This document shows, piece by piece, positions 31,501 through 37,394 of a stretch of 48,794 nt of DNA; position 1 is the stretch's first letter; each line of letters starts with the position of its first letter. Both the position numbers and the translations under genes were made by a program. This DNA comes from Nitrospirota bacterium (GTDB lineage Bacteria; Nitrospirota; Thermodesulfovibrionia; Thermodesulfovibrionales; UBA6898): positions 1 through 48,794 of the forward strand of contig QKDO01000041.1 of the NCBI GenBank assembly GCA_003252075.1, given 5' to 3'. Under the pieces are notes generated by a model that saw nothing but the letters and a program-made list of their open reading frames with translations, did no database searches and was not told where the DNA came from.

Positions 31501-32380
31501 CTATTGATTTGCCTCGGCGACGCTACCAGTTTGACCAAGAAAATGCATAGGCATAAAAAAGATGGCAATGGACCTGTTTACCACCGCGCTCGCATGGTCA
31601 CTTCTCAGTGTGCTTGTATTCGCAGTGTCAATTGTCGATTTTGCTTAAGGGCTTAAGAACAGAGATATTTTATCGGGCGAAACTTCCTGAACCTTGTGGC
31701 AACTTGATTTGTCATATTGGTGACTCGTGGGGCGTTTCCTCTCTTCCATATGGACTACGGCAAAGGCGCTCGAAAGTTTTACTCGGTGCATCAGGACCTT
31801 AACCATTTACGCTATCTATCCTAACAGTGATCGCGTTACGCAACGATTAATTCCGGGAAGCAATTCCCGCCAGGCGTCGTTCTGTTAGCTGCCTGCCTCT
31901 ATGCATGGCTGCAGAAGCGAGCGCTGAATTGATTGGCGACCAAAGTCGTTCGAGCGGACACTTAACACCATCGTTAACGATTTCTAGTAGAACTCCGCAC
32001 CGTTAGAGTATGCCGTCAGGCCGTTTAGTGCAGGAAGTAAGATTGCCTCCGGCCCTTTCATGGCAACCATTGTAACATTCACCCCTAAAGCTGCATAGCG
32101 ATTTTCTCTTGGCCACCGACGAGTCAACAGGTCTTACGAATCGCAACTATTACAGTATGCCAAAAGAAATGATGCGTAACGTCAGGGCTCACTGCATCGA
32201 CGGTTTTATTGGCCATCCAACAGAGCGGTTCGTTACGCATTCTTTCTCCCATTGGTAAGGTCCGTCAGTGTCTTAACCAAGAAGTCCGCATTGTACTGAT
32301 GTCCCTAAGGTTGCCCCTAGTGTCCCATGACATGTAACATGAAATTGGGCGCAGGATCAATTTCAGTCATACTGCGAACG
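31501..32380. other. 880-bp gene-poor stretch with CGTTACGCA repeats
   Basis: No ORF here looks like a real protein. The stretch contains three copies of CGTTACGCA or its complement (31834-31842, 32173-32181 inverted, 32231-32239). The last two form 10-bp arms (ATGCGTAACG at 32172-32181, CGTTACGCAT at 32231-32240) about 50 nt apart. Also present are CTAACAG (31811-31817) against CTGTTAG (31882-31888) with a CGGGAA/TTCCCG hairpin between them, and the 12-bp palindrome ATCGTTAACGAT at 31971-31982. These could be worn integron attC sites or remnants of mobile DNA. Confidence 0.4.
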
Positions 32381-33088
32381 CTATCCCGGTGTCCAGAAGG
32401 GTCCCGACTTGCCCAGCTTCTTCAGCGATAAGATCAGCTCCGATGCATACTCATTGAGTCGAGAGAGATAGTCCGGCTGTAGACGATTCCTGTGCAGAGG
32501 CCCGCTAAACGCCGTTGCCCAATTGGACAAGGACATGATGGACTCAGTCGAAACGGAATCATAAAGCGACCAACTCTTCACGTGCTCCTCCGACCGGAAG
32601 AGATTCATGCGGCTTCAAGCCGAGCCCCAAGTCACTTCTCCTGTTAAAGCCTTAGCGAACGGAATATTCATATGACCTACGGTCGTTGGTGGATTGACTT
32701 CGAGGATCTCCTCGTCACGCATACGGATGTGGATGGGTTGCCCACAGTCCAGGCAACTGGTGTTGATATGGATCTCCGTACCAGGGAAAAGCCAGCGCAC
32801 GGCCAGCACTTCGATTCCTCACTGTCCGTACCACTTCTGCTCCCCCTTGATCGTCACACGATGATGTGTCGGCACGTTGGAAAAAGGCGCCCATGACTCA
32901 ACGTAGTCTGTGTCTTTAACAAACCAGCAGGCTATGGAGGACTCGGCTGCTTTGTGCTGCACATGTCTGGCCTCGTCTGGTCTCACCCCGAGAATTCCCG
33001 CAAGCTCGGTATAGTGCGGTGACCGCCCAGTCTTTACAAAATGCTCCACGACAGCCGTGTAAGCTCGTTGTACCAATGCGTCTTGCAT
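32381..33088 (-). CDS. MerB-like organomercurial lyase with two in-frame UGA (selenocysteine) codons
   Basis: Continuous 235-codon frame ending in TAG, interrupted only by TGA at codons 90 and 158. It reads as an alkylmercury lyase (MerB) homologue: N-terminal helical domain (LAGILGVRPDEARHV, like LAGILDWPAERVAAV of MerB), then WYGQ-U-GIE where MerB has LYAW-C96-ALD99, then NTSCLDCGQP at the MerB Cys117 region, then GSA-U-SRMNLFRS where MerB has SFC-C159... aligned without gaps to FFAS. Both TGAs therefore replace the two catalytic cysteines that cleave the carbon-mercury bond; Asp99 is Glu93. The start has GGGAGG 9 nt upstream and a good promoter. SECIS-like hairpins follow the TGAs, and selB and selA lie just upstream on the same strand. 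Expected to act in the cytoplasm on organomercurials or another organometal (inference). The alternative is a pseudogene with two nonsense changes. Confidence 0.82.
32585..32602 (-). promoter_or_regulatory. SECIS-like hairpin after the second UGA
   Basis: On the minus strand, CUCUUCC and GGAGGAG form a 7-bp stem (one G-U pair) closed by a GGUC loop. The loop begins 20 nt after the UGA at 32617-32615. Bacterial SECIS elements are short hairpins directly downstream of UGA with a G-rich apical loop, and the E. coli fdhF element also carries GGUC in its loop. Stem, loop and distance all fit. Confidence 0.75.
32615..32617 (-). other. in-frame UGA, predicted selenocysteine 158
   Basis: TGA at codon 158 of the MerB-like frame, in the context GSA-U-SRMNLFRS. 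It aligns with catalytic Cys159 of E. coli MerB. The frame continues for a further 77 codons with good similarity to the MerB C-terminus. Confidence 0.8.
32794..32810 (-). promoter_or_regulatory. weaker SECIS-like hairpin after the first UGA
   Basis: On the minus strand, AGUGC and GCGCU form a 5-bp stem (one U-G pair) with a 7-nt loop UGGCCGU whose two G residues lie 15-16 nt after the UGA. This is at the short edge of the usual distance and the stem is brief, so the call is tentative. Confidence 0.4.
32819..32821 (-). other. in-frame UGA, predicted selenocysteine 90
   Basis: TGA at codon 90 of the MerB-like frame, in the context QKWYGQ-U-GIEVLAV. It aligns with catalytic Cys96 of E. coli MerB (LYAWCALD), and the acidic residue three positions later (Asp99 in MerB) is Glu here. 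Confidence 0.8.
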
Positions 33089-33141
33089 AACACTGCCTCC
33101 CTTCTGTGTGCTTACCGTACTTTATAATTCCCTCTAATATT

Positions 33142-33170
33142 CTTCTATCAAAAAATCATATACTTGTCAA
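33142..33170 (-). promoter_or_regulatory. promoter of the MerB-like gene
   Basis: On the minus strand: a perfect TTGACA (33170-33165), a 17-bp spacer and TAGAAG (33147-33142), about 55 nt upstream of the start. AT-rich surroundings. A GTACGGTAAG segment just downstream faintly recalls half of a mer operator, but the dyad partner is missing. Confidence 0.5.
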
Positions 33171-33364
33171 ACAACAACGGCAAAGACAGATAGGGATTAT
33201 CTGATGATATCCGGATGTTATGAATTCTGAAGAATTCCATTCGTTATATTTAGTCTTACAGTGCTTCTCAATGCTGTCAGCTACAGGAAGTATGTATCAG
33301 GATCTTGGGAGTCCCTGTCGATGTGGTATCGCATAACCTTCTGCCTACCGCACAATGTCAATGA

Positions 33365-33832
33365 TCAGTTTATCTTCTTGAACGAACCTTTCACATCGAT
33401 GCTGACACCGTGCCAGTTGCTGACGTTGCCCATGGTGCCGGTAAAGGTCACCTTGTCCCCCGGCTTGAGGCTGCTGCGGTCCTCCTGATTGACGATCAGC
33501 ACGACATTGTACCCCTTAACAGGCGTGCTCCCCGGCGCGAGAATTAGGACCTTGCCTTTGGACGAAGACGGTGAGCCGGCCAGATTCGTTACCGTGCCGG
33601 CACCGGAAACCTTTTTGCCTTTGATCTCATGCACATAGTCACGCTGGTGATCAATGAAATCAGGAGCAGCCCCAGGCTCCCGATAATTCGGTTGCCATTC
33701 TGTCTTACCCTTCAGAGACTCAAGGTTCGTGATAACCTGTTCTACATTCAGCGGCTCTTCCGCAGCAACGATAGAAACAAATGTGGGAATAAGCAATGCC
33801 GTAAAGAGCAGTGTGATATTCTTCATGGTCAT
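33365..33832 (-). CDS. secreted small OB-fold-like protein
   Basis: 155 aa with a signal peptide (MTMKNITLLFTALLIPTF, cleavage near VAA-EE) and a beta-rich mature part (GKKVSGAGTVTNL, then KGYNVVLIVNQEDRSSLKPGD and KVTFTGTMGNVSNWHGVSI, each read in parts) resembling tRNA_anti-like/OB-fold periplasmic domains. Function unknown. It lies between the MerB-like gene and selB on the same strand. Confidence 0.6.
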   Translation of the reverse strand: MTMKNITLLFTALLIPTFVSIVAAEEPLNVEQVITNLESLKGKTEWQPNYREPGAAPDFIDHQRDYVHEIKGKKVSGAGTVTNLAGSPSSSKGKVLILAPGSTPVKGYNVVLIVNQEDRSSLKPGDKVTFTGTMGNVSNWHGVSIDVKGSFKKIN

Positions 33833-33977: not shown

Positions 33978-35861
33978 TCAGCCTTTCAGTATGAACTTCC
34001 GCACATCACCGAGGCGGAGGGTGACCTTTGCGGCGTCGAGGTGCTCAAGGAAAGGCAGGGCAAATTTACGTGAGGTATTGAGCAGGTCACGGAACTCTGC
34101 CACGGTAAGCTCGGGTTTCTTTAAAAAAAACGTTCTGAGCAGGGATATCATCCGTTCGTAGGCTGCAGCTGACAGATAGACCGACTCATTGATCCTCACG
34201 ACACTCCGTTCCTTTGCAAGGATGGTAAGGATATCGGTTATCTGCTTCTGGTCCATCTTGAGGGTCTCAGCCATCTCCTGTTTGGTGGGCGGCTGAAACT
34301 CCCCTTTGGTGAGCAACTCAAGGATCTTTGTTTTATGAACTTCTGCAGCACCGGACAGTGCTACCGTGAACGTCTTCAGTCTGATCAGGTCCTTGTCAAC
34401 AATGACATCCTTCAGGGACGAGATCAGGAAGTTGAACAGCTTTGTATCCACGTTCAGATGAGCTCTCACCTCCTCTTTGACCATACCCGGCTTGAGCGGG
34501 TGTTCCTTATGGAAGGCCCTGAGCAGTTCCTGCACCCTGCTGTTGATAAGATCAAATGCATGAACATGAATGAGGATGTCTTCATGACGGATGAGTGCGC
34601 CAGTCTGTTCGAGGATTTTGAGCGCCTGCTGCATTGCCGGGCGGTCTGCATTGATCCAGCCAGTGAGCGCCGGAACCGAGATCCCGGTGAGACCTGCCTT
34701 CTGTATTTTTAGCTCGATCTTCTGTCCAAGCTGCCCGGTCCTGTATATGATAAGGTCCTCAATGCCGTCCTTTTTCCTTCTCCTGCCGGGCGTAGGGTCG
34801 AGGACCTCGCCACCTCCCAGTGTCTGGAGGGGCGAGAATCTCCTTATGATATAGCGGTCGCCTGCCATTGCTATCACGGGGTCCTGCAGCCGGAATTGGC
34901 AGAAACAGTGCTCTCCGGCTTTCAGCTCTTCGTGCTCATAAAGGATGACCCGTGCAACGGTCTCGGAGGTGCCGGTGTAAAAATGGACAAGGCTCCTGTT
35001 CTTAAGCGGAGGCACGTCCTTTAACAGATCAAGAGAGAGGTCGAGGGTCTTTGTCGGCGTAAAGCTCGAAGGAGCAACAGCAACATCTCCCCTTCTGAGC
35101 TCATCTTTATCCACTCCCTGCAGGTTGATAGCGACACGCTGTCCTGCGTATGCTTTGGTAATGGCCTTTCCATGGCTATGCAGACCTCTCACTTTGGTCG
35201 TTACGCCGCACGGAAGGATATCGAGCGGAGCGTCGACGGAGATCGCTCCCGAGACTGCGGTTCCTGTTACCACGGTACCAAATCCCTTGAGCGTGAAGAC
35301 CCTGTCGATTGGAAGCCTGAAGAGACCGCCGGATGTCTTGGGCGTAATGCTCAGGGCGAGCTCCCGGATCTCTTTTTTGAGGAGGTCGAGATTATCTCCT
35401 GTTCTTGAAGATACCGGGACAATCGGCGCATGTTCGAGGAATGTTCCCTTTACGAACGAACTGATTTCATCTGCAACAAGGCTGAGCCATTCTTTTTCGA
35501 CAAGGTCTGCCTTGGTGACCGCAATGAGCCCTGACTGTATGTTCAGAAGGTCGCAGATCGCAAGATGTTCGCGGCTTTGGGGCATGATGCCTTCGTCAGC
35601 TGCAATGACCATGAGTACCATGTCGATGCCGCCGGCGCCTGCAAGCATGTTGCTGATGAGTTTCTCATGGCCCGGGACGTCGACGATGCCGACTGTAAGT
35701 TCGTCATCCGGATATGCGAGGTCAGCGAACCCGATATCGATGGTGATGCCGCGTTCTTTTTCTTCTTTCAGGCGGTCAGGGTCAATACCGGTGAGTGCCT
35801 TCACGAGCGAGCTCTTTCCATGGTCGATATGGCCGGCTGTGCCGAGAATTACATAGCGCAT
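33978..35861 (-). CDS. selB: selenocysteine-specific elongation factor SelB
   Basis: Delivers Sec-tRNA to UGA by binding both the ribosome and the SECIS hairpin. N-terminal GTPase with G1 GHIDHGKS (10-17), G3 DVPGHE (61-66) and G4 TKAD (116-119); domains II and III follow, then the C-terminal winged-helix repeats that read SECIS (LLTKGEFQPPTKQEMAETL region and the final VAEFRDLLNTSRKFALPFLEHLD region). 627 aa, the normal length. It lies 123 nt downstream of selA, probably in the same transcript. Its presence means that UGA is decoded as selenocysteine somewhere in this genome. Confidence 0.97.
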   Translation of the reverse strand: MRYVILGTAGHIDHGKSSLVKALTGIDPDRLKEEKERGITIDIGFADLAYPDDELTVGIVDVPGHEKLISNMLAGAGGIDMVLMVIAADEGIMPQSREHLAICDLLNIQSGLIAVTKADLVEKEWLSLVADEISSFVKGTFLEHAPIVPVSSRTGDNLDLLKKEIRELALSITPKTSGGLFRLPIDRVFTLKGFGTVVTGTAVSGAISVDAPLDILPCGVTTKVRGLHSHGKAITKAYAGQRVAINLQGVDKDELRRGDVAVAPSSFTPTKTLDLSLDLLKDVPPLKNRSLVHFYTGTSETVARVILYEHEELKAGEHCFCQFRLQDPVIAMAGDRYIIRRFSPLQTLGGGEVLDPTPGRRRKKDGIEDLIIYRTGQLGQKIELKIQKAGLTGISVPALTGWINADRPAMQQALKILEQTGALIRHEDILIHVHAFDLINSRVQELLRAFHKEHPLKPGMVKEEVRAHLNVDTKLFNFLISSLKDVIVDKDLIRLKTFTVALSGAAEVHKTKILELLTKGEFQPPTKQEMAETLKMDQKQITDILTILAKERSVVRINESVYLSAAAYERMISLLRTFFLKKPELTVAEFRDLLNTSRKFALPFLEHLDAAKVTLRLGDVRKFILKG

Positions 35862-35984: not shown

Positions 35985-37394
35985 TCAGGCTTCGGATAGT
36001 GCTCTGGATACGATTTCCACCAGAAGCGGTATCTCGTTGTTCCTGACGGTGCGGGCGTCCAGCAGAAGCGCGTCTTCCCTGATGCGCGCAATGACGGGTC
36101 GTGAGCCTGATCGCAGACGTCTTTCCAGATCATTTACGGAAATGTTCAAGGGAACGATCGACACTGCATACGTATCGAAAGCGGCGTCCGGCAATGAGCC
36201 CCCGCCGGCCTTTGAGATGTCCTTGATGACCGAAATAGCGCCCGGGCTTCCCTGTTTGCGCAGTCCTGCTGCCAATTTCCTGGCCCTGATCCGTAGCGAT
36301 TCAACCGGTTGGAAGAGCATGTTCAGTACGGGTATGTTTTTCATCGCCTCGTCAGGGTCCAGATACTCCATCAAGGTAGCCTCAAAAGCGGCTATCGTCA
36401 TCTTGTCGACCCGCACTGCACGCGCAAGCGGATTTTTCCGGATCCTTTCGATAAGGTCTTTTTTCCCGACAATGATGCCACCCTGCGGCCCGCCCAGGAG
36501 CTTGTCGCCGCTGAATGTGATGATATCGACTCCGGACCTGAGGATTTCCTGCACCGAAGGTTCAGCATGAATGCCATACGGTTTCAGGTCAATAAGGTTG
36601 CCACTTCCAAGATCATACATGACCGGTACGCCCTGGTCATTCCCGAGCCGAACCAATTCGCTGATCGGTACATCTTCCGTGAAGCCGATCACTTTATAGT
36701 TCGACTGATGTACCTTAAGGATGAGGCCGGTCTTTTCGGAGACCGCACCGCTGTAGTCATGGAGATGGGTCTTATTCGTTGTTCCTATTTCGTGCAGTAT
36801 TGCACCGCTTGCGGTCATGACGTCGGGCACCCGGAACGAGCCACCGATCTCGACAAGTTCTCCCCGTGATACAATAACCTCGCGGTCCTTTGCCAGCGTG
36901 TTCAGGGAGAGGAACACCGCAGCCGCGTTGTTATTGACAATCAGTGCATCTTCTGCCCCCAGAAGCTGCCGGAGGATCCTGCCGGTGTGTACATGCCGTT
37001 TACCCCGCTTCCCAGCCTCAAGATCATATTCGAGATTGGAATAACCCCTGCTCACGGCAATGACGTTCTCAAGGGCACGTTCTGACAGCACTGCCCTACC
37101 CAGGTTCGTATGCAGCACGATGCCCGTTGCATTAATCACCTGCATCAGGTTGTATGAGGAAAGCGCGCGTATCTGCCCGGCAATGTCCGCGAGCAGCTTT
37201 GCCAGAGAGCTTACCGGCTTTTTTCCGTCAAGTATCTTTTGCCTTTCCCCGGCGATGACGTCCCGGACAGCCTGAAGAACAATGGCCCTCGGGAATGACC
37301 GAAGCCATGCTGATCCTTCGGGGCCTTTCAGAATCTCGTCAACGGAAGGAAGCCTTGAGAGCAGAGTGGACTGTTCGTCCTTTTTCTTACTCAT
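35985..37394 (-). CDS. selA: L-seryl-tRNA(Sec) selenium transferase SelA
   Basis: PLP-dependent bacterial enzyme that converts Ser-tRNA(Sec) to Sec-tRNA(Sec). N-terminal LPSVDEIL domain, then INATGIVLHTNLGRA, NNNAAAVFLSLNTLA, and the PLP lysine at residue 298 in SGDKLLGGPQGG. 469 aa. Its start overlaps the stop of the small upstream ORF by 4 nt. Selenophosphate synthetase (selD) and tRNA-Sec (selC) are not in the window. Confidence 0.97.
   Translation of the reverse strand: MSKKKDEQSTLLSRLPSVDEILKGPEGSAWLRSFPRAIVLQAVRDVIAGERQKILDGKKPVSSLAKLLADIAGQIRALSSYNLMQVINATGIVLHTNLGRAVLSERALENVIAVSRGYSNLEYDLEAGKRGKRHVHTGRILRQLLGAEDALIVNNNAAAVFLSLNTLAKDREVIVSRGELVEIGGSFRVPDVMTASGAILHEIGTTNKTHLHDYSGAVSEKTGLILKVHQSNYKVIGFTEDVPISELVRLGNDQGVPVMYDLGSGNLIDLKPYGIHAEPSVQEILRSGVDIITFSGDKLLGGPQGGIIVGKKDLIERIRKNPLARAVRVDKMTIAAFEATLMEYLDPDEAMKNIPVLNMLFQPVESLRIRARKLAAGLRKQGSPGAISVIKDISKAGGGSLPDAAFDTYAVSIVPLNISVNDLERRLRSGSRPVIARIREDALLLDARTVRNNEIPLLVEIVSRALSEA

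Follow-up and report, generated by a model that had tools for sequence, protein, structure and literature searches.

A MerB-like protein with predicted selenocysteine at both mercury-binding positions

The window (the whole 48,794-nucleotide stretch of DNA analysed here) carries on its minus strand a frame that is interrupted only by in-frame UGA at codons 90 and 158 and is closed by TAG. The features of this locus are listed in Table 1. An earlier note on this DNA had given the coordinates, the strand, the terminal TAG and the two UGA codons, all of which were verified when the sequence was re-read. It had also described a good promoter and ribosome binding site; the ribosome binding site stands, while the description of the promoter was generous, as the promoter-like matches upstream are weak (9 of 12 positions), with four observed against 1.6 expected over positions 32200–33370. 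Without read-through, the gene appears in ORF calling as three small ORFs, and ordinary annotation truncates it. Its GC content is 53.8%, compared with 52.7% for the whole window. The approximately 0.9 kb downstream of the gene (31501–32380) contain no convincing gene, and have a lower GC content of 48%.

Table 1. Positions of the gene, its internal features and the selenocysteine genes, in window coordinates.
Feature	Position	Strand	Remarks
selA, L-seryl-tRNA(Sec) selenium transferase	35985..37394	minus	TIGR00474 608 bits, cut-off 268
selB	33978..35861	minus	TIGR00475 367 bits, cut-off 242
Ribosome binding site GGAGG	33096..33100	minus	read from sequence; ends 7 nt before ATG
Double-Sec MerB-like gene	32381..33088	minus	235 aa, predicted U90 and U158, TAG end
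N-terminal helix-turn-helix-like domain, residues 1–67	32888..33088	minus	AlphaFold model; LexA-type matches, Z about 8
UGA codon 90	32819..32821	minus	column of E. coli MerB Cys96
Glu93 codon	32810..32812	minus	column of catalytic Asp99 of MerB
SECIS-like hairpin after UGA 90	32786..32812	minus	core stem 32791–32807, GU in loop
Cys112 and Cys115 of CLDCG motif	32744..32755	minus	Cys112 on MerB Cys117
UGA codon 158	32615..32617	minus	column of E. coli MerB Cys159
SECIS-like hairpin after UGA 158	32585..32602	minus	CUCUUCC-GGUC-GGAGGAG in window

The Pfam MerB domain (PF03243) matches residues 69–187 of the window protein (4.6e-21), and is matched by all 50 members of our 50-row alignment. When the profile of this alignment was compared with the sequences in the PDB, it matched MerB2 (5c17) at 1.4e-27 and E. 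coli MerB (3f2g) at 3.2e-12. The AlphaFold model of the window protein has a mean pLDDT of 95.9 and a pTM of 0.90. Foldseek gave 11 matches with E ≤ 0.001, all of them to MerB or MerB2, with TM-scores of 0.41–0.61 by query length. With VIA-align, MerB2 gave a Z score of 17.8 (rmsd 3.5 over 192 residues) and MerB 16.1, the next fold being LexA at 8.4, which covers approximately the first 67 residues. The solved MerB structures also align from near their own N-terminus, and the helix-turn-helix-like part is therefore not a special feature of this protein. The fold is common to the window protein and MerB (PDB 3f0o, 3f2f, 3f2g and 5c17) over some 180–190 residues; unlike MerB, the window protein has about 25–30 C-terminal residues beyond the matched part. 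Its NCBIfam scores are all far below the respective cut-offs, at 51 bits for SaoL (cut-off 140), 36.2 for PRK13239 (193) and 30.6 for lyase_MerB (200). The domain match and the predicted fold confirm the window protein as a MerB homologue.

In the alignments to PDB 3f2g and 5c17, residue 90 falls on Cys96 and residue 158 on Cys159. The earlier note had placed the UGAs on these two cysteines, and this placement is borne out, as is the spacing that it gave, with 67 residues between the UGAs compared with 62 between the MerB cysteines. According to a computational study (PMC4525700), Cys96 and Cys159 of MerB bind mercury and Asp99 assists proton transfer. The likeness to MerB comprises the two mercury-ligand columns, an acid residue three positions after the first of them, and a cysteine at the Cys117 column, where Cys112 lies according to the sequence alignment. 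The differences are that both ligands are predicted to be Sec, that Asp99 is replaced by Glu93, and that an extra cysteine follows three residues on, completing the CLDCG motif. A strict definition of MerB asks for Cys at 96 and 159 and for Asp at 99. At the first two positions we find Sec codons, which encode the chemical counterpart of Cys and not the same residue; at the third we find Glu, in a column that varies in accepted members, given that the solved MerB2 has Ser there. Among the rows that include site 1 (the Cys96 column; site 2 is the Cys159 column), the Asp99 column holds Glu in 39 of 40 and Lys in the other. Both cysteines of CLDCG are present in 39 of the 40 rows. They are not strictly needed, because one double-Sec member, L094 (genome G517), has DLATAE in their place.

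A scan of GTDB genomes found four relatives at 77–81% identity, three of which have UGA at both sites; the fourth ends with its contig after the first UGA. Whole-genome searches gave a match of any kind in 20 of 395 genomes drawn from the window's phylum, in 10 of 176 from its order, and in 41 of 395 drawn from the phylum of Desulforhabdus sp. TSK. The resulting double-Sec clade has 37 members, window included, for which both sites are readable, in 30 genomes and with no more than three copies per genome. Every one of the 37 has UGA at both sites, and none has a third UGA within the aligned core. The other 36 members are 36–91% identical to the window protein. The profile is covered nearly end to end by 35 of the 37, the exceptions being L097, which stops early, and L105, which has a run of N. 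For rows outside the tree, membership was assigned by score: the lowest of the 37 scored 268.8 bits and the best UGA-free row 91.9. L072 was dropped as a duplicate of L001, the locus of Desulforhabdus sp. TSK, and neither L098 nor L099, both frameshifted, is counted in the 37. These two (in G814 and G827) are copies of the double-Sec gene whose frameshifts reflect either decay or assembly error.

UGA occupies the site 1 column in 40 rows, and the remaining filled rows have Cys and lie outside the clade; inside it, no Cys orthologue was seen in the genomes searched. The sequence-level observations that the earlier note had named as refuting did not turn up: another residue at either codon occurs in no clade member whose frame is readable, and UGA is kept at both sites down to approximately 36–38% identity. 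The argument that two random nonsense mutations were unlikely to strike these positions is strengthened accordingly, with 37 members having UGA at exactly these codons, far above chance. When the window gene was compared with five close homologues (L100, L101, L001, L002 and L003), dN/dS was 0.06–0.18 in each of the three segments bounded by the UGAs, indicating that purifying selection persists 3′ of both; for a sixth homologue, L073, two of the segments had saturated dS.

The structure alignment and tree were made without the near-duplicates L086, L119 and L125, and also without L098, L099, L105, L108, L109 and L113. The resulting tree has 50 rows, and the 36 that are double-Sec group together as a single clade (support 92/95). 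Closest to them lies a clade of nine rows with Cys at site 1 (support 100/99); the node that unites the two is poorly supported (82/0), and long branches were flagged. This MerB-like clade, from the Desulforhabdus phylum (L111, L112, L115 and L121–L126), has Cys at both sites, unlike the window protein, except for one member, L110, with UGA at site 2. With the double-Sec clade it shares the motif W[YF]GEC[PA]VE at site 1 and, following site 2, FF-SE, and it is only 23–26% identical to the window protein.

Three relatives carry a single UGA. L110 (G796:C171) has Cys at the Cys96 column and UGA at the Cys159 column; its nearest relative, L122, has Cys at both, and on sequence comparison the pair represents a recent exchange of Sec and Cys. 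L117 (G695) and L120 (G566), both from the Desulforhabdus phylum, combine Cys at site 1 with the motif CU at site 2. Against the SaoL model (cut-off 140), L120 scores 141.2 bits, just over, L117 falls short at 125.6, and L110 reaches only 32. Sec is thus predicted at the Cys159 column in three places in the tree and at the Cys96 column in the double-Sec clade only (parsimony, three changes compared with one). The usual mark of a selenoprotein, UGA aligned with Cys of homologues, is found here: the UGAs correspond in the alignment to Cys96 and Cys159 of MerB and to the cysteines of a related clade, and UGA and Cys are swapped between L110 and L122. From the sequences, we regard the double-Sec reading as close to certain.

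Each UGA is followed by a SECIS-like hairpin (Table 1). Counting the U of UGA as 1, the site 1 hairpin (GCUGGC-nGUnn-GCUGGC) has its GU at nucleotides 22–23, and the site 2 hairpin (CUCUUCC-GGUC-GGAAGAG) at nucleotides 24–25. The hairpin alignments contain 38 of the 40 available sequences per site (37 distinct), with the frameshifted L098 and L099 left out. Pairing is found in 99.7% of the paired cells at site 1 and 96.1% at site 2, compared with at most 60.2% when the arms are slid; at site 2, 9 of 37 sequences lack the outermost pair. The covariation score is above all 500 shuffles at both sites (0.141 vs. 0.096 at site 1, 0.126 vs. 0.069 at site 2). Two pairs at site 1 and three at site 2 are changed on both sides. 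At site 1, the numbers of doubly changed pairs and of pair types are matched by 98 and 97 of 500 shuffles and hence do not go beyond them; at site 2, they are matched by two and two.

Since sequences that share ancestry can outscore shuffles even if no structure exists, we give synonymous constraint more weight than these shuffle counts. Among 29 non-redundant members, the constraint is highest at codons +4 to +8 and +5 to +9, and the top 12 of 224 five-codon stretches are all located shortly 3′ of the two UGAs or span them. Blocks of 13 codons dilute the signal, which is then equalled by 13 of 219 blocks for site 1 and 6 of 217 for site 2. Single-sequence folding of the window's two hairpins was no better than for shuffled sequences (z of −0.05 and −0.55), and no Rfam family matched the double-Sec gene. 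Taken over the alignments, it is well supported that each UGA has its own predicted downstream SECIS hairpin with GU in the loop. In L088, L090 and L107, both arms of the site 2 hairpin have changed together such that pairing is kept and amino acids are altered (Leu to Cys and Glu to Ala in L088 and L090); in these three, RNA structure may outweigh the local protein sequence.

The window also contains selB and selA (Table 1), and the SelD of the same genome is itself of the Sec type (GUAAK). No intact tRNA-Sec was found in the 146-contig draft, using either RF01852 or a tRNA-Sec query from the same genus: RF01852 gave sub-cut-off matches only, and the eight candidate loci are ordinary tRNAs according to ARAGORN. 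In related genomes RF01852 exceeds its own cut-off in at least 29 of 34. The same search gave a signal in 14 of 14 control genomes, and since it was over the cut-off in five of these, we set a bar of 60 bits; tRNA-Sec scores above this bar in at least 27 of the 34 related genomes, among them the single-Sec genome G796. ARAGORN called tRNA-Sec in one of the four related genomes examined. Two fragments of a tRNA-Sec 3′ end are present in the window's genome, one of about 41 nt (88%) at L150:1501-1540 (G000:C71:29678-29717) and one of 22 nt (95%) at L151:1501-1522 (G000:C123:31840-31861); they appear to resemble the attachment-site remnants of integrative elements.

The proximity of selB, some 0.9 kb from the gene, had been taken in the earlier note as support for the Sec reading. 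It holds in the window, and selB was not found by clustering near the double-Sec gene in the 40 other loci. The clustering took in 515 neighbouring ORFs of at least 80 aa, lying up to 9 kb on each side (many loci being shorter), and revealed no conserved neighbour; as no family is common to more than 5 of the 41 loci, the proximity of selB was dropped as evidence. The double-Sec MerB-like gene is stand-alone. An NCBIfam scan of selB, selA and the window gene's two nearest neighbours gave no Sao match, and these two nearest match no model. We recognised no mer operon context around the gene.

By its own count, a review of prokaryotic selenoproteins (PMC13188914) covers 119 families and subfamilies, and its Table 1 has SaoL as the sole MerB-like entry, with one Sec and the motif CU. 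SaoL (NF040728), which we compared by means of this table and the NCBIfam model, resembles the window protein in being a MerB-like selenoprotein, and the Sec of the SaoL-type L117 and L120 lies on the same column as U158. It differs in having one Sec only, with Cys kept at the Cys96 column in L117 and L120, and in its CU motif, where the window protein has two predicted Sec and Ala before U158. The SaoL cut-off is not reached by either the window protein or L001 (53 bits). A MerB-like or “MerB2” selenoprotein is also named in PMC9312934 and PMC7435645, with no count of Sec in the passages that name it, and a member of the double-Sec clade may sit unremarked behind these older entries. No double-Sec MerB was found in the open-licence papers to which our search was limited. 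The novelty proposed in the earlier note is thus to be narrowed: Sec in a relative of MerB is not new, SaoL having been predicted with one, and it is Sec at both positions that is new. As far as could be searched, a double-Sec active site is undescribed. Surveys of MerB have probably missed the clade, judging by the search rules that they describe: the screen in PMC8261052 used Cys at 96, 117 and 159 together with Asp99, with Ser99 and position 117 variants named MerB-like, and the MerB model in PMC9948709 was built on sequences with two conserved Cys.

We then compared the distribution of the double-Sec gene with that of mercury genes. In the Desulforhabdus phylum, HgcA is over its cut-off in 114 of 395 genomes. 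It is present in 17 of 24 double-Sec carriers compared with 97 of 371 others (odds ratio 6.9, Fisher p 1.3e-5, with kinship and genome size ignored), or in 19 of 24 carriers if two cut or split genes are counted. In the strict table, G497 and G517, in which hgcA is cut or split, are negative, and G459 (N-terminal piece only) and G590 (short pieces) are non-carriers. In an earlier set of 54 genomes, hgcA occurred in 22 of 34 carriers and 3 of 20 non-carriers. Within this set, it is over the cut-off in only two of the seven carriers from the window's own phylum, namely the window's genome and G285. The window's host is predicted from its sequence to be a mercury methylator; its hgcA lies at G000:C90:2110-3090 and scores 390 bits (cut-off 275). 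In G722, the only single-contig genome in which their positions were compared, the two genes are not close together. For MerA, 2 of 34 carriers exceed the cut-off of 454 bits; below it, matches of 300–408 bits, some of which may be true MerA, are found in many carriers, and that of the window's genome is 357. The 2021 survey PMC8261052 states, where it deals with genomes that have MerB only, that none of them encode HgcAB, and asks how MerB continues without MerA. The pairing of hgcAB with merB is as such not new, because PMC9948709 reports three MAGs with hgcAB and ordinary merB and also names Geobacter bemidjiensis Bem.

A lyase function, predicted from homology, is likely. Taking all the evidence together, we consider it rather probable that the gene encodes a MerB-related double-Sec selenoprotein, made by UGA/SECIS insertion, that works as a MerB-type demethylase of organomercury (or of another organometal). 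In the proposed mechanism, both mercury-binding catalytic residues would be Sec, each inserted at its UGA via its own 3′ SECIS hairpin. R-Hg+ would be bound by the pair of selenolates, and Glu93, which stands where MerB has Asp99, would pass a proton to the departing carbon, leaving Hg(II) between two Se atoms. Since MerA over the cut-off is rare in carriers, we speculate that sulfide or low-molecular thiols would then strip off the Hg(II), in the form of HgS or HgSe, with no reduction to Hg(0). We infer that Sec is inserted in the cell, that mercury is the substrate and that catalysis takes place.

Tight Hg–Se bonds could hinder turnover, which is a point against the lyase reading, and bis-selenolate binding of Hg(II) would indeed be very tight. 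This general chemistry would suit a protein of MerB fold that binds metals or metalloids without cleaving a carbon–metal bond, as a mercury sink, chaperone or sensor. The scarcity of MerA over its cut-off and the stand-alone gene fit such a role, and the resemblance of the N-terminal domain to LexA-type DNA-binding domains gives a hint of sensing. We nevertheless consider it unlikely: the acid residue near the first site, needless for a sink, is kept (as Glu in 39 of 40 rows), and the helix-turn-helix-like part, being matched in solved MerB, does not single this protein out as a sensor. Still less probable is cleavage of another organometal or organometalloid, such as methylated tin, lead, arsenic, selenium or tellurium, in place of methylmercury. 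It draws on the nearest NCBIfam model being the organometallic lyase SaoL (51 bits compared with 36 for MerB) and on the lack of a recognised mer context, and it is opposed by the enrichment of hgcA, and hence of mercury methylation, in the carriers of one phylum (kinship ignored; two of seven carriers in the window's own).

The reading of the UGAs as ordinary stops or mutations, in a pseudogene or in three small genes, is extremely improbable. Potential start codons (ATG or GTG) do exist for each piece, the draft yielded no intact tRNA-Sec, and two related copies are frameshifted; these points are set against the same two UGAs in 37 members as little as 36% identical to the window protein, the low dN/dS after both, the conserved hairpins, and a related clade that contains Cys and shows one swap with UGA. 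The conservation of the UGAs together with the low dN/dS rules out random nonsense.

A broader form of the demethylase reading can be put forward tentatively, and we rate it as possible and no higher: a widespread and unannotated selenium-dependent organomercury demethylase with a two-selenium site, mostly without MerA, that would serve anaerobes, many of them HgcAB methylators, and would pass Hg(II) on to sulfide or selenide. If true, this would be a missing route by which methylmercury is broken down where oxygen is absent; it would have been overlooked because gene callers end the frame at its first UGA and surveys of MerB seek Cys96 and Cys159. Two catalytic Sec acting on mercury would be a striking use of Hg–Se chemistry, and methylmercury breakdown by anaerobic methylators would become testable with a named gene. 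The double-Sec protein may be a hitherto overlooked means by which microbes living without oxygen deal with organic mercury.

The distribution of the gene does not follow that of the window's genus, most genomes of which have no match. Two that do (G217 and G433) have copies only 37–38% identical to the window protein, and copies of 81% identity occur in the phylum of Desulforhabdus. As possible carriers we considered phages, for which a pattern-based scan of viral contigs gave no relative, and plasmids, for which four plasmid records contained ordinary MerB only, at 23–27% identity; both were rejected. The phylum of Desulforhabdus presumably differs from that of the window, because the genome draws do not overlap, and if so the gene would have moved between phyla.
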